A stretch of 29,659 nt of DNA. It comes from a virus. Every line of letters starts with the position of its first letter. Position 1 is the first letter of the stretch. A program made the translations under genes and the position numbers. Under the pieces are notes generated by a model. It was not told where the DNA came from and ran no database searches. It saw nothing but the letters and a program-made list of their open reading frames with translations. Location of the stretch: positions 1 through 29,659 of IMG/VR virus record IMGVR_UViG_3300035670_000982. One strand, written 5' to 3'. Of this stretch, positions 23,396-27,420 are shown piece by piece.

Positions 23396-24232
23396 TTACG
23401 AGAGCAAGGCTGTCCAAGTAGCTGTATCAACATCTCCTGTTGCGGGGAGCCCAACTTTTGCTTGGAACTCTTTAACAGCTGCTTGTGTTTTTGGTCCAAA
23501 ATCTCCATCTTGTAAGCAATTAATTCCGTGTTTTGTCAAACGCCTTTGCAATCTTTTAACTGCTGGACCTTTATAATCTTTTGTAAGATGCGGAAGTGAT
23601 GCTGGATCAACTTTTGGACCATCATCAGATGCTGATTTTGCTGGCTGTTGCGTAACAGGCTGAGCCGCTGGTTGCGGAGCAGGTTGATCACCTCTTTTAG
23701 CAACATATTCAACAACAGCAGCAGGTGGATTATCACCTTCTGTATACCGCAAATGCCATGGTTCTTCTGGCACAACTTCCCAGCTAAAACCAAACTTACG
23801 AACATTATCAATAAGCCAATTTAATCTCTTTGGCTCAGCAGCTGTATGGACATCGACGGCCAATCCGCTATTATGCTGAGATGTACCAGGTGCAGCAAGA
23901 CTTGCTAACTTTGGTGATTTCTTGTACCACTTAACACCTTCAAAAGTTCTTGTTGAGGCACCGGGGATTGGCTCTTTCTGATATCTTTGCTTAAAAGCAG
24001 TTAGTTGGGATTCAAAAGAGCGATATGTATCACCAGAAGAAACCGGCTTTAATTCAACGCCATCAGCCTTTGCAGCTTCAACCATTGCTTCCCATGCATC
24101 TGCTGCCCTCCAATGCAATTTGCCGCCGCCCTTAAGCGGCTTTAAAAGCTTCTCTGGCAACTTGCCGGGTGCAATCCCCTTCAAATCTGCTGGTTGTTTT
24201 ACTGGGACAACAATATTCCACTTAACACTCAT
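23396..24232 (-). CDS. Endolysin: M15 (VanY-type) peptidase with peptidoglycan-binding domain
   Basis: A 278-residue protein from ATG 24232; a longer frame starting near 24322 is ignored because AGGAGGAG lies 9-10 bases before 24232. Residues about 60-165 carry the M15 signature: SSGDTYRSFESQ, then TSQHNSGLAVDVH (H120, D127) and EEPWHLRY (E157, H160), the zinc ligands and catalytic acid of D-Ala-D-Ala carboxypeptidases or L-Ala-D-Glu endopeptidases. A Pro/Gln/Ala linker (184-200) joins a C-terminal PG_binding_1 domain (about 215-277: AVKRLQRRLTKHGI, DGDFGPKTQAAVKEFQ). The ribosome site lies within the end of the preceding membrane-protein gene, so the lysis genes are coupled. It cuts peptide links of cell-wall peptidoglycan. 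Confidence 0.95.
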   Translation of the reverse strand: MSVKWNIVVPVKQPADLKGIAPGKLPEKLLKPLKGGGKLHWRAADAWEAMVEAAKADGVELKPVSSGDTYRSFESQLTAFKQRYQKEPIPGASTRTFEGVKWYKKSPKLASLAAPGTSQHNSGLAVDVHTAAEPKRLNWLIDNVRKFGFSWEVVPEEPWHLRYTEGDNPPAAVVEYVAKRGDQPAPQPAAQPVTQQPAKSASDDGPKVDPASLPHLTKDYKGPAVKRLQRRLTKHGINCLQDGDFGPKTQAAVKEFQAKVGLPATGDVDTATWTALLS

Positions 24233-24233
24233 T

Positions 24234-24494
24234 TTAGAACTCCTCCTCATCTTCTTTCTTTGCTTTCTTATCGACTTTACTGAAGACCTGATTGATTTCA
24301 TCAACACTAAGTTTACCATCATCTAAGAATGCACGTGACAATCCTTCAATAACAGTAGCAACGCCAGCAATCCCAGCCATAAAAACCGCCTTCCAGACTG
24401 GAACGCCAGCGATTGTACCCGCCCCGATGACTCCTAGCCCCGAGGCAGAAAAGGTCGCCAATATACGAAGGCAAATATTTTTGACCTGATCCAT
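24234..24494 (-). CDS. Holin-like membrane protein with EF-hand-like acidic C-terminus
   Basis: An 86-residue protein. Hydrophobic segments SASGLGVIGAGTIAG and VWKAVFMAGIAGVATVIEGL are two likely transmembrane helices. After them comes AFLDDGKLSVDEINQVFSK, in which DDGKLSVDE resembles an EF-hand calcium loop, then a charged tail KKAKKEDEEEF. Several actinobacteriophage holins have a similar membrane hairpin followed by a 'DGKL..DEI' segment; this is from memory. The end of the gene carries the endolysin ribosome site and the start follows the previous stop by two bases. Likely a holin or antiholin controlling lysis timing. Confidence 0.75.
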   Translation of the reverse strand: MDQVKNICLRILATFSASGLGVIGAGTIAGVPVWKAVFMAGIAGVATVIEGLSRAFLDDGKLSVDEINQVFSKVDKKAKKEDEEEF

Positions 24495-24496
24495 GC

Positions 24497-24727
24497 TTAT
24501 GCCTTCTTCTTAGTAGCGGGCTTTTCCGCAGGCTTCTTTGCTAAGAAAGAAGCAACTGTAGGATCGCCAACCTTTGTTGATAACCATGCAAGACCATAAG
24601 CAATTGCAGGTGTTAATACCGCAACCAACTCACCGTCAAGATTTAGCTGAACTGTAGCCAGCCAGACCCAAACGCCGAGCGCGCCTCCTTTAACTGCTTG
24701 ATCTAAGTTTTGTGACTTAGTAGACAT
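24497..24727 (-). CDS. Holin-like small membrane protein
   Basis: A 76-residue protein from ATG 24727, with GGAGG 5 bases upstream; an in-frame GTG at 24733 is less likely. Residues about 10-55 are hydrophobic with two weak helices (GGALGVWVWLATVQL; LVAVLTPAIAYGLAWL). The tail is Lys/Ala/Pro-rich (KKPAEKPATKKKA), like the cytoplasmic basic tails of holins. It is the first gene after a near-consensus promoter at 24760-24788 and is followed immediately by a second membrane protein and the endolysin. A holin role is the natural reading; which of the three candidates is the true holin cannot be decided. Confidence 0.75.
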   Translation of the reverse strand: MSTKSQNLDQAVKGGALGVWVWLATVQLNLDGELVAVLTPAIAYGLAWLSTKVGDPTVASFLAKKPAEKPATKKKA

Positions 24728-24736
24728 GATCACCTC

Positions 24737-24759: not shown

Positions 24760-24788
24760 ATTATACATCATAGGTTATTCCATGTCAT
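24760..24788 (-). promoter_or_regulatory. Near-consensus sigma-70-type promoter for lysis genes
   Basis: Minus-strand ATGACA (24788-24783, 5 of 6 match to TTGACA) and TATAAT (24765-24760, perfect), separated by exactly 17 bases. Predicted start is about 24753, directly upstream of the holin-like gene at 24727. The -35 overlaps the end of the coding region of the 722-residue protein. It is the best promoter in the window. Confidence 0.7.
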
Positions 24789-24969
24789 TCTTTAATATTT
24801 CATTTAAATAATGAACAAATAAGGCAATCAATGTAGCAATTCCAGCAAGTCTTTGAGTTGTACCAGATAGCGTAATATAAACAACAAAGCTACCAGCTAA
24901 TGTAAAAGCTAATCCGGCTGTAATATCCCAAAGTTTTTTACCAAAACCAAACCAGTTAAATTTCTTCAT
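24775..24969 (-). CDS. Nested holin-like membrane protein (in-frame internal start)
   Basis: A 64-residue protein in the same frame as the C-terminus of the 722-residue gene. ATG 24969 is preceded by AAGGAGGG at 24984-24977 with 7 bases of spacing, an excellent ribosome binding site that would have no purpose inside an ordinary coding region. The product starts MKKFNWFGFGKKLWD, amphipathic and basic, followed by two hydrophobic segments (ITAGLAFTLAGSFVVYITL; LAGIATLIALFVHYL) and NEILKNDME. Size and topology fit a small two-helix holin, and two further holin-like genes and the endolysin follow. It may be made both as part of the large protein and independently. Alternative: an ancestral stop between two genes was lost. 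Confidence 0.6.
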   Translation of the reverse strand: MKKFNWFGFGKKLWDITAGLAFTLAGSFVVYITLSGTTQRLAGIATLIALFVHYLNEILKNDME

Positions 24970-26943
24970 TTCAATTCCCTCCTTTATATAATACTTGTAA
25001 ATGCTATTTTTAGCATAATCATTATCATCTTCATCTTCAGGACCAGCAATTTCACCAGCCGCTTCACCAACCTCTTCTTCTTTTCTTGAACGGGCTTCGC
25101 CAGAATTACCGCCTCCGCCAGAACCTCCACCAGAGCCGCCTCCACTTGAGCCTCCAGATGGAGCACTTGGTGCAGCAGGTGCAGCACCAACAGTTATTGT
25201 TGCCAATGCCGCAGCAGCGGCAATAACAGACTTTCTTGTTCCAACATCAACACTTGATCCTGCTGGAACATATTCATCAAAGCCGCCGCCATAAACATTT
25301 ATTTCTTCTTCCAGAGCTTCTTTAATTTCATCCTCTTGTTCATTTAAAGTTTCAACAAGTTGCTCAACCTGTTCATCTGAGAGTTCTTCAACATCAATGG
25401 CCGCAAAGACTTCTTTTAATTGCTCTTGGGGTGCAGATGCCAAATCGCTATTTAAAACCGCCGCAACCGCTTCCTGAGCGCTCTGAGGCGGTGTTTCGGG
25501 CAGCGGGGCAAGGGTTGTTTGTGTCGGGGCTACTGTTGTTGTCGTTGTAGGGGCAATAGTTATTGTAGTACTTGTAGTTGTTGTAGGTGGAATTGTAGTC
25601 GTTGTAGTACTTGTTGTAGATGTTGTTGTACTAGTTGTTGTAGTTGGAGCAAGTGTTGTTGTTGTACTAGTTGTTGTAGTTGGAGCAAGTGTTGTTGTTG
25701 TACTTGTAGTTGTAGTCTCAGGTACTGTTGTAGTTGTTGTAGTTTCAGGTACAGTCGTTGTAGTAGTCGTTGTACTTGTAGTAGTCGTTGGAGCCTGTGT
25801 AGTTGTTGTAGTTTGAGGCGGCGGGGCTTGCGTTGTTGTCGTTGTTGGTGGAAGAGTAGTTGTCGTTGTAGTCGTTGTGGCAGGTGGCACATATACAGTT
25901 GTTGTAGTAGTCTGGGGTGGAGATGTTGTTGTGGTACTGGTTGAAGATGTTGTTGGCGGGATGGTCGTTGTGGAGGTCGTTGAAGAAGTCGTTGAAGTTG
26001 TTTGAGGAGCAATTGTAGTTGTAGTTGTTGCTACTGGGTAGTCAATGACAATTGAAACTTCCTCTGTAAAGTTTGAATAGTAGCGAGAGGTGTCATTGTC
26101 TGATCTGACCCGGAATCTCCATGTTGAGCCAGATTCAACGCCAAAAAAGTCAAGGGCAAAATATTCTTTATTAAATTCGTAATAGGTATTCAACGCATTG
26201 GCATCGCCAACATTGCCTGTTGCAACTCCCCACCCAGCAACATCGCCAGTTGTAAAACCTATTGCATAGCGTTCCGGTTGATAGGTTCCACAACTTGGCG
26301 CATCCCAATCCAACAAAACAGCATCTTCAGTTTCAGAAATAGCCAGGTTCTCTGGAGGGCAGATATCCACAGCCGGAATCGTTGTGGTGGTTGATGTAGT
26401 CGTAGTAGTTTCAGGAACTGTCGTGGTAGTTGATGTAGTCGTTGTGGTCTCAGGAACAGTTGTAGTGGTAGTTGTAGTTTCGGGGACTGTAGTTGTTGTT
26501 GTAGTTGTGGTGCTTGTAGTTGTTGTAGTTGTAGTGGTAGTAGAACTTGTTGTTGTGGTATTTGTTGGAGCAAGGTTTGCTTCAATTAAATATGATGTTC
26601 CATACCAAGCATCTGGATTTCCACAACATACCCCGGCTCTTAATCGATACGTTCCGGGCTCAAGATTTCTTGATATATAAGAATCAAGACCATAATAGTC
26701 ATCATTGCTTGCAATTAAATTATTATTACTATCATATAACCACAGCATTGAATCAATGCCATATTGATCTCTGGCGTATGTACGAACACTTAATGTTTGA
26801 GCGGTTGATAATTCAAAATAAAAATCCCGATCGTTTTGGGTAGCCGTATAGGTATCGGCACTAGCGGGATTAGATGGGAAAAAGAACGCAAGCAGGGCGG
26901 GTATGAGTATCCATGCACCTTTACGAAGCTTAATTCGCTTCAT
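24775..26943 (-). CDS. Secreted threonine-rich multidomain protein with C-terminal membrane segment
   Basis: A 722-residue protein. Residues 1-29 are a signal peptide (KRIKLRKG, then a hydrophobic core, ending ASA). About 30-125 are a pre-peptidase C-terminal (PPC)-like beta-domain (DSMLWLYDSNNNLIASND; LEPGTYRLRAG). About 127-190 are Thr-rich. About 192-305 are fibronectin III-like (PPENLAISETEDAVLLDWDAP). About 306-480 are Thr-rich with VPE, LAP and APT breaks. About 487-550 are acidic helical, then FDEYVPAGSSVDVG and a hydrophobic AAAAALATITVGA, Gly-rich linker, and the nested holin-like region (659-722). This architecture and the Thr linkers resemble actinobacterial surface proteins, so host origin is plausible. 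It is likely anchored in the cell envelope, perhaps remodelling it during infection or lysis. Start ATG 26943 overlaps the upstream stop (TAATG) with only a weak ribosome site. Confidence 0.75.
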   Translation of the reverse strand: MKRIKLRKGAWILIPALLAFFFPSNPASADTYTATQNDRDFYFELSTAQTLSVRTYARDQYGIDSMLWLYDSNNNLIASNDDYYGLDSYISRNLEPGTYRLRAGVCCGNPDAWYGTSYLIEANLAPTNTTTTSSTTTTTTTTTSTTTTTTTTVPETTTTTTTVPETTTTTSTTTTVPETTTTTSTTTTIPAVDICPPENLAISETEDAVLLDWDAPSCGTYQPERYAIGFTTGDVAGWGVATGNVGDANALNTYYEFNKEYFALDFFGVESGSTWRFRVRSDNDTSRYYSNFTEEVSIVIDYPVATTTTTIAPQTTSTTSSTTSTTTIPPTTSSTSTTTTSPPQTTTTTVYVPPATTTTTTTTLPPTTTTTQAPPPQTTTTTQAPTTTTSTTTTTTTVPETTTTTTVPETTTTSTTTTLAPTTTTSTTTTLAPTTTTSTTTSTTSTTTTTIPPTTTTSTTITIAPTTTTTVAPTQTTLAPLPETPPQSAQEAVAAVLNSDLASAPQEQLKEVFAAIDVEELSDEQVEQLVETLNEQEDEIKEALEEEINVYGGGFDEYVPAGSSVDVGTRKSVIAAAAALATITVGAAPAAPSAPSGGSSGGGSGGGSGGGGNSGEARSRKEEEVGEAAGEIAGPEDEDDNDYAKNSIYKYYIKEGIEMKKFNWFGFGKKLWDITAGLAFTLAGSFVVYITLSGTTQRLAGIATLIALFVHYLNEILKNDME
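24977..24984 (-). promoter_or_regulatory. Internal Shine-Dalgarno AAGGAGGG
   Basis: Eight-base ribosome binding site, AAGGAGGG on the minus strand, 7 bases before the in-frame ATG at 24969 inside the 722-residue gene. It is as strong as the sites before the major tail protein (AGGAGG) and the endolysin (AGGAGGAG), and decides the nested start. Confidence 0.75.
25500..26030 (-). repeat. Threonine-codon low-complexity tract, second linker
   Basis: Nearly pure G and T on the plus strand (A and C on the minus strand), encoding the Thr-rich linker of about residues 306-480. A 36-bp unit encoding TLAPTTTTSTTT is repeated in direct copies around 25619-25690, so the linker has expanded by duplication. 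A similar tract occurs at 26380-26570. Confidence 0.85.
26380..26570 (-). repeat. Threonine-codon low-complexity tract, first linker
   Basis: G/T-rich plus strand encoding the first Thr-rich linker (about residues 127-190), with three VPE-TTTTT style repeats. DNA-level copies (tcaggaac and similar) recur at about 33-bp intervals. Strand-skewed tracts of this type are prone to length changes. Confidence 0.8.
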
Positions 26944-27239
26944 TACTTTTCTGTTGGTTCTTGCAACTCCTCAGCTGGGTCTTGTGCGTTCTTGCTTTTT
27001 ACATTTGAAATCATCAACCCCGCCAAAGTTCCGGTAATAAATGTTGCAATACTTGATAACACACTAAAAAACATCTTGTCGTTTTCAGCTTGCGCTCCAA
27101 CGGGTTGAGCAACAAATACAAGGGCATAAAGGATGGCGCATGTTGTTGTAAACAATACGGCTCCAAGAACACATCCCACAATAAACCTTAATCTTGCATC
27201 CAAATCTTCAGGAGTATACTTATTCATCTTCCTTTCCAT
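26943..27239 (-). CDS. Two-helix membrane protein, possible holin
   Basis: A 98-residue protein. Of several ATGs, 27239 is favoured because AAAGGAGG ends 6 bases upstream; a second, MNKY at 27227, is possible. Two hydrophobic segments (FIVGCVLGAVLFTTTCAILYALVFV; FFSVLSSIATFITGTLAGLMI) are joined by a short charged loop (GAQAENDKM). The C-terminus is hydrophilic and acidic (NAQDPAEELQEPTEK). Similar two-helix proteins with N-terminal YTPEDLDARLRF occur in many aquatic phages as uncharacterised or holin-like. It overlaps the preceding lipoprotein gene by about 20 bases and the following secreted protein gene by one base, so the three are coupled. Confidence 0.75.
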   Translation of the reverse strand: MERKMNKYTPEDLDARLRFIVGCVLGAVLFTTTCAILYALVFVAQPVGAQAENDKMFFSVLSSIATFITGTLAGLMISNVKSKNAQDPAEELQEPTEK

Positions 27240-27420
27240 TTGTGTCCTCCTTTGGATCAAATCCAATTAAATCCGTTGTACATCCACCTTCAACAATACA
27301 TACGGGTGGGTTACATTCTTCGTTTTCCCAATTTACAGGGTCTTGACAATGATAGCGATAACTACCTTGATAACCACAGCCAGAAATAATTAAGAATAAA
27401 ATCGGGATTAATTTTTTCAC
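27220..27420 (-). CDS. Small lipoprotein
   Basis: A 66-residue protein starting at GTG 27420. MKKLIPILFLIISGCG is a short signal peptide with a lipobox ISGC, so C15 is probably lipidated and the remaining 51 residues are exported. The mature part holds conserved cysteines (YHCQDPVNWENEECNPPVC; EGGCTTDL). Proteins with a CQDPxNW...C.PPxC pattern are widespread in aquatic phages as predicted lipoproteins of unknown function. No Shine-Dalgarno is visible, but TATAAT with a 6-base spacer directly precedes the GTG. Candidate roles include a spanin-like partner of the following membrane protein or superinfection immunity; neither is proven. Confidence 0.8.
   Translation of the reverse strand: MKKLIPILFLIISGCGYQGSYRYHCQDPVNWENEECNPPVCIVEGGCTTDLIGFDPKEDTNGKEDE

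Follow-up and report, generated by a model that had tools for sequence, protein, structure and literature searches.

Dual-start holin/antiholin genes of the lambda S107/S105 type give rise to two products that differ by few residues. Phage endolysins composed of two polypeptides are described, in the consulted portion of PMC9430671, as arising from single genes through in-frame internal starts (iTSS), and in that of PMC13059759 the short form of SpaO is helpful but not strictly required. The paper on phage DSL-LC01 predicts an Actinomycetia host (PMC10611076), and its examined text does not discuss the surface gene considered here. PMC6802176, which also covers possible Acidimicrobia phages, and PMC7771536 deal with phages of aquatic actinobacteria; the words 'threonine' and 'RCC1' are absent from the examined main texts of both, and 'PA14' and 'transmembrane' from that of PMC6802176. 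The titles and abstract openings of literature on nested or in-frame holins, and on threonine-rich surface proteins of Acidimicrobiia or phages, did not describe the arrangement reported below. The case for a nested in-frame start is commonly made on a single sequence; in the present case, evolution provides the controls through conservation at the level of codons, shifts of register, split forms and lineages in which the start was lost.

The stretch of DNA analyzed here (the window) is a virus record of 29,659 bases. It carries a long gene whose product is ordered as signal peptide, ectodomain, Thr-rich stalk, membrane-proximal domain, transmembrane helix, linker and two-helix module, followed on the same strand by a group of small membrane protein genes and an endolysin gene:

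24775..26943, minus strand: long open reading frame (ORF) of 722 codons; homologous fusions in 84 of 104 haplotypes (from the best 80 loci per large scan)
26854..26943, minus strand: signal-peptide-like N-terminus (MKRIKLRKGAWILIPALLAFFFPSNPASA), from hydropathy; an RKGxW-hydrophobic start recurs in relatives
25504..26853, minus strand: variable ectodomain and Thr-rich stalk, residues 31-480, with 45% Thr across residues 137-480
25228..25449, minus strand: conserved helical membrane-proximal domain, residues 499-572 (part of alignment A4); model helices with pLDDT of about 71-88
25171..25227, minus strand: transmembrane helix 1, residues 573-591, from the AlphaFold model and hydropathy
24970..25170, minus strand: linker, Gly/Ser-rich then acidic, probably cytoplasmic, ending in KNSIYKYYIKEGIE; disordered in the model
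24977..24984, minus strand: internal Shine-Dalgarno sequence AAGGAGGG, conserved at the nucleotide level in relatives
24775..24969, minus strand: nested in-frame ORF of 64 amino acids, a two-helix membrane module (phrog_29041-like), from profile match and model
24793..24924, minus strand: two membrane helices, residues 674-692 and 699-717 by hydropathy; AlphaFold helices at model positions 166-193 and 197-219
24497..24733, minus strand: neighboring membrane protein of 78 amino acids, no family at E < 0.08
24234..24494, minus strand: membrane protein of 86 amino acids, the likelier holin candidate (phrog_443 holin, 4.6e-6; phrog_26427, 3.3e-23)
23396..24232, minus strand: endolysin (VanY and PG_binding_1), start set at the ATG behind GGAGGAGTTCTAAA

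The internal Shine-Dalgarno sequence is followed by 7 bases (AATTGAA) and then by an in-frame ATG at 24969-24967 on the minus strand, which is residue 659 of 722, and the nested ORF uses the same stop as the long one. An earlier note on this DNA had drawn attention to this strong ribosome site, to its 7-base spacing and to its place in the last tenth of the gene, and the coordinates were confirmed. Its description of a 64-residue product with two membrane helices and a basic N-terminus agrees with hydropathy and with a charge count of four K/R and one D/E in the first 16 residues, and the order that it gave, with the nested gene ahead of two small membrane genes and the endolysin, was likewise recovered. 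The pattern AAGGAGG-N4-10-ATG occurs three times in the window against 0.41 expected, a count reached in 1 of 100 shuffles, and the remaining two sites precede ordinary ORF starts; the comparative control given below is much stronger than this count from a single sequence. A search for sigma-70-like promoters in the surrounding 1-kb region gave a single site, located 3' of the start of the short ORF, which is fewer than in shuffled sequences, and seven RNA folds of 90 nt at the internal start gave no z-score beyond about 1 and no indication of a hidden or regulated ribosome site.

An AlphaFold model of the 224-residue C-terminal part was weak overall (mean pLDDT 65, pTM 0.37), with the helical membrane-proximal domain, a transmembrane helix, a disordered Gly/acidic linker and two helices in this order. 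Charge and hydropathy are consistent with a topology in which the ectodomain lies outside, the linker is cytoplasmic and the terminal hairpin has both ends inside. A fold search of the PDB with this model returned six matches, none with E <= 0.001, and PDB sequence profiles gave nothing for the two-helix module (best 0.79). The best PDB profile match of the membrane-proximal domain, a tautomerase at 0.0021, was treated as chance, and a match of residues 462-640 to the phrog_8482 'attachment protein' (6e-5) was discounted, since Thr/Gly composition is its probable cause. The N-termini inspected by eye, from 16 fused and 3 split ORFs, have the look of signal peptides, and Pfam scans of the phage relatives revealed diverse ectodomains with PA14, FN3-like and MgtE_N-like regions.

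Scans of viral contigs found 42, 131, 133 and 159 relatives, and the best 80 loci were used from each of the last three; because the phage counts rest on these selections plus the 42, the more distant forms may be too thinly represented. With the window and phage DSL-LC01 (OQ999401.1) added, the relatives made up 213 loci and 104 distinct haplotypes: 84 fused, 4 split, 4 with a standalone module and no surface-protein domain, and 12 (including L104, which is fused in other contigs) excluded from the count of states as their contigs end just upstream. An in-frame internal ATG with a Shine-Dalgarno sequence, leading to the shared stop, was found in the window gene and in 76 of the 84 fused haplotypes, 74 of them by script and two (L044 and L102, whose ATG falls outside the range of the script) by eye. 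Since many viral relatives keep both the long fusion and the internal start, the Shine-Dalgarno-like string is not a product of chance. The fused forms prevail across deep lineages in our trees, which are unrooted, and although the length of the linker varies between lineages, the frame is nonetheless kept in the fused ones. In one virus record of 267,766 bases, two fused copies co-occur (L180 and L181), of 1026 and 761 codons. The hosts of these viruses are probably aquatic actinobacteria.

The earlier note had proposed looking in relatives for a stop codon just before the ATG, and such stops were found in L081, L089/L090 and L096. In these split phages, the long ORF stops a few codons past a conserved RNSI-F/Y-KY tail, the module begins 2-3 nt past that stop and its Shine-Dalgarno sequence lies within the long ORF; the RNSIxKY linker tail is retained even where the long ORF stops ahead of the ATG. 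The split phages form one group in the unrooted module-only tree, but they need two changes in the unrooted tree of domain plus module, and the two trees thus disagree. The same note had named two findings that would speak against it, namely relatives that are always fused with no conserved ribosome site, and a sequencing error that had removed the stop; the relatives are mostly fused, yet the site is strongly conserved, and an error of this kind cannot account for 84 fused haplotypes. The module also occurs as a free gene (L129/L130, L134, L144 and L145), with a different upstream gene where this was inspected (L129 and L134), and the membrane-proximal domain was not found in the four standalone-module records searched, of 22-37 kb. 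These standalone modules imply that the module can act without the surface protein.

For the analysis of codon usage at the internal site, the 78 fused haplotypes that have 230 or more codons upstream were clustered at 88% nucleotide identity, which gave 46 clusters. Of the 190 columns scored, the Glu column of the Shine-Dalgarno sequence showed the strongest synonymous conservation: the codon was GAG in 42 of the 42 clusters with Glu at this position, compared with a GAG usage of 27% and with 3-63% in 26 other Glu columns. The preceding codon ended in G in all 42 clusters while encoding Lys (17), Glu (11), Gln (6), Arg (5) or Thr (3). As GAG is fixed, and as the codon before it ends in G despite the varied amino acid, selection acts on the RNA and not on the protein. 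The cluster counts assume independence and are inflated by relatedness, for which stricter cuts help only in part; at 70% identity, GAG and the preceding G-ending codon were each found in 12 of 12 clusters. In 42 of 46 clusters, the conserved in-frame ATG was preceded by a Shine-Dalgarno match of 5 nt or more, which was the case for 4 of the 227 remaining in-frame ATGs of the same ORFs; in L173 and L044/L102 a Shine-Dalgarno sequence persists although the codon register and the amino acids differ. The relative position of the internal start is thus conserved among relatives to a degree that protein constraint would not require, and on this comparative evidence internal initiation is very probably real.

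There are exceptions among the fused haplotypes. The Shine-Dalgarno sequence is lost in L073. In the seven haplotypes of clade C (L082, L091, L098, L101, L103, L105 and L114), GAGGAGG or GAGGAGGG is retained, but the ATG behind it is not in the frame of the module, and an in-frame start is absent; even so, the frame of the fusion is intact in these haplotypes. The clade C records behind L082, L092, L093, L098 and L105 were searched whole, four of them longer than 90 kb and that behind L098 only 5 kb, and contained no second copy of the module. The lack of both an in-frame start and a second copy in clade C suggests that the free product is unneeded there or is made in another way, and together with L073 it implies that the free module is dispensable in some lineages. 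In the clade C linker, the out-of-frame ATG adjoins an A-rich run; the site may conceal frameshifting or represent a start in decay.

The search for homologs was extended to bacterial genomes. A first scan of bacterial genome contigs with the module found no relative, and a scan with the membrane-proximal domain found two contigs, one of them an Acidimicrobiaceae MAG. The other, L219, is a phage contig binned in a Gammaproteobacteria MAG, with a fused gene followed by the endolysin. Around the Acidimicrobiaceae MAG, the domain was detected in 3 of 298 genomes of the order, 7 of 395 of the class, 2 of 396 of the phylum and 14 of 221 of a family, sets that overlap and together hold 15 distinct domain-carrying genomes; from the sampling around this MAG, all 15 would be Acidimicrobiia. 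The module was present in each of the 15, fused in nine and as an adjacent gene in six, and the neighbors in the loci examined were chromosomal, encoding iPGM, Cpn60, FMN oxidoreductase, glyoxalase, sigma-70 and tRNA-Arg, with a gene order in common between L232 and L233. A good Shine-Dalgarno sequence precedes an in-frame ATG in two of the nine fused cellular genes (L230 and L231); it is poor in L232, L233 and L235, and L234, L237, L238 and L239 have no ATG at this position. Four cellular loci (L229, L230, L232 and L233) carry RCC1, DUF4082 or DUF285 ectodomains, which were not reported by the Pfam scans of the phage relatives. In the concatenated tree of domain and module (unrooted), the cellular sequences form two groups among those of phages, and transfer of the surface-protein system between phages and cells is likely. 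The analysis thereby names an uncharacterized surface-protein family common to environmental phages and Acidimicrobiia chromosomes.

The position of the module near the lysis genes had led the earlier note to propose that the locus makes a long protein and a free holin. Given the conserved internal start, the locus can very probably make both a long secreted and anchored protein and a free product of 64 residues, whereas the holin label is doubtful. The 64-residue product, with its two helices and basic N-terminus, is small and charged at one end as a holin would be, although these are weak criteria, and an endolysin follows on the same strand, at a distance of no more than 3.5 kb, in 4 of 4 standalone forms and in 32 of the 66 fused haplotypes whose downstream sequence is 3.5 kb or longer, a count based on the endolysin of the window as query, so that a dissimilar endolysin would be missed. 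However, no holin family in PHROG, Pfam or NCBIfam matched the product, with nothing above the Pfam cut-off; its sole profile match was phrog_29041, of unknown function (positions 2-44 of 55, E 1.1e-5), which the standalone phage copies matched at 1.6e-8 and 7.9e-10. The holin match is carried instead by the separate 86-residue gene, which follows on the same strand at up to 3.5 kb in 40 of 66 fused haplotypes and lies kilobases away on the other strand in several lineages, including L044, L082, L092 and L105. The phrog_26427 family of this protein is labeled 'nuclease', a label that may be wrong given the holin match and the appearance of a small membrane protein. Genes for proteins of 66, 97 and 86 amino acids lie near each other (window positions 26943-27420 with 23396-24494; L044, L081, L082 and L092), in many phages on the strand opposite to the fused or split gene, and the surface gene seems to have moved relative to them. 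The holin reading is therefore weakened by the missing profile match, by the holin match of the 86-residue gene, by the pairing of homologs with the same surface protein amid chromosomal housekeeping genes and by the apparent distance of the endolysin in many fused haplotypes. We consider it unlikely that the locus encodes a free holin beside a secreted protein, also in the bolder form in which the long product is a surface-exposed antiholin or sensor, even though membrane helices would be present in both products. The locus is a caution that not every small two-helix protein near an endolysin is a holin.

Two further explanations concern the fusion itself. The existence of split and standalone versions, and a Shine-Dalgarno sequence under selection everywhere save in the exceptions, would be compatible with two separate genes joined by loss of a stop, the short product alone being functional and the read-through a tolerated by-product; yet the fusion predominates in deep lineages and in cells, and its frame survives linker insertions and deletions and persists in clade C, where the in-frame start is absent, making this explanation quite unlikely. 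Conversely, a long fusion as the sole product, with the Shine-Dalgarno-like string a by-product of the protein sequence, would fit clade C, L073 and the majority of the fused cellular genes, which have no usable internal start. The synonymous and register evidence that nucleotides rather than amino acids are conserved, and the need of the split lineages for the same Shine-Dalgarno sequence, render this highly improbable.

We favor, with moderate confidence, a single gene that yields a membrane-anchored surface protein together with surplus copies of the anchor module of this protein, the two probably forming a complex. The long product would be exported via its signal peptide, display a variable ectodomain on a Thr-rich stalk, span the membrane once and continue through a flexible cytoplasmic linker to a two-helix membrane module at its end, while the conserved internal ribosome site would also yield the module alone, of 64 residues. 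In the most likely model of assembly, which resembles full-length proteins that join their own C-terminal fragment, the free module would assemble with the module of the long product in the membrane, creating a base in which modules outnumber ectodomains. Its role would be at the cell surface, in adhesion, sensing or superinfection control, rather than in membrane lysis. Sequence comparison establishes the fusion, the conservation of the start, the split forms and the occurrence of the same pair in bacterial chromosomes, and we infer that the gene makes both products and that these assemble and act at the surface. The phage modules found without the domain in four haplotypes (records of 22-37 kb) count against a two-product assembly, as do clade C (7 of 84 fused haplotypes), L073 and the scarcity of a good Shine-Dalgarno sequence in the fused cellular genes (2 of 9). 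A more elaborate scheme, which we regard as speculative and improbable, would have the long product hold the module inhibited or sensing at the surface and the separately started module act as an active pore or effector, with the ratio set at the internal site coupling surface signals to lysis or superinfection control, in a system exchanged between phages and Acidimicrobiia.

A surface protein accompanied by its own anchor module would resemble described systems in part. The phrog_29041 family, whose profile of 55 positions matches the module, has no function assigned and is uninformative on the fusion. Like the window gene, lambda-type dual-start genes have two starts in one frame and encode two membrane proteins; unlike in that type, where the N-terminal extension is short, the products differ by 658 residues in the window and by as many as about 1400 in relatives, a difference that comprises a signal peptide and an ectodomain. 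The endolysins (PMC9430671, as far as consulted) are alike in having an internal in-frame ribosome site and start, a shared stop and a short product that corresponds to the C-terminal domain, and their study likewise draws support from a relative position that is shared throughout a cluster; the window gene differs in encoding a membrane-anchored surface protein whose fragment is a membrane module, and in having split and chromosomal versions. SpaO-L and SpaO-short, in the part of PMC13059759 consulted, parallel the proposal most directly as a full-length protein and its own C-terminal fragment that come from one gene and assemble, whereas SpaO belongs to a cytosolic secretion sorting platform of unrelated function. 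If the two products of the window gene do assemble, they would be a membrane-protein case of the principle, represented by the endolysins and SpaO, of a full-length protein combined with its own fragment.
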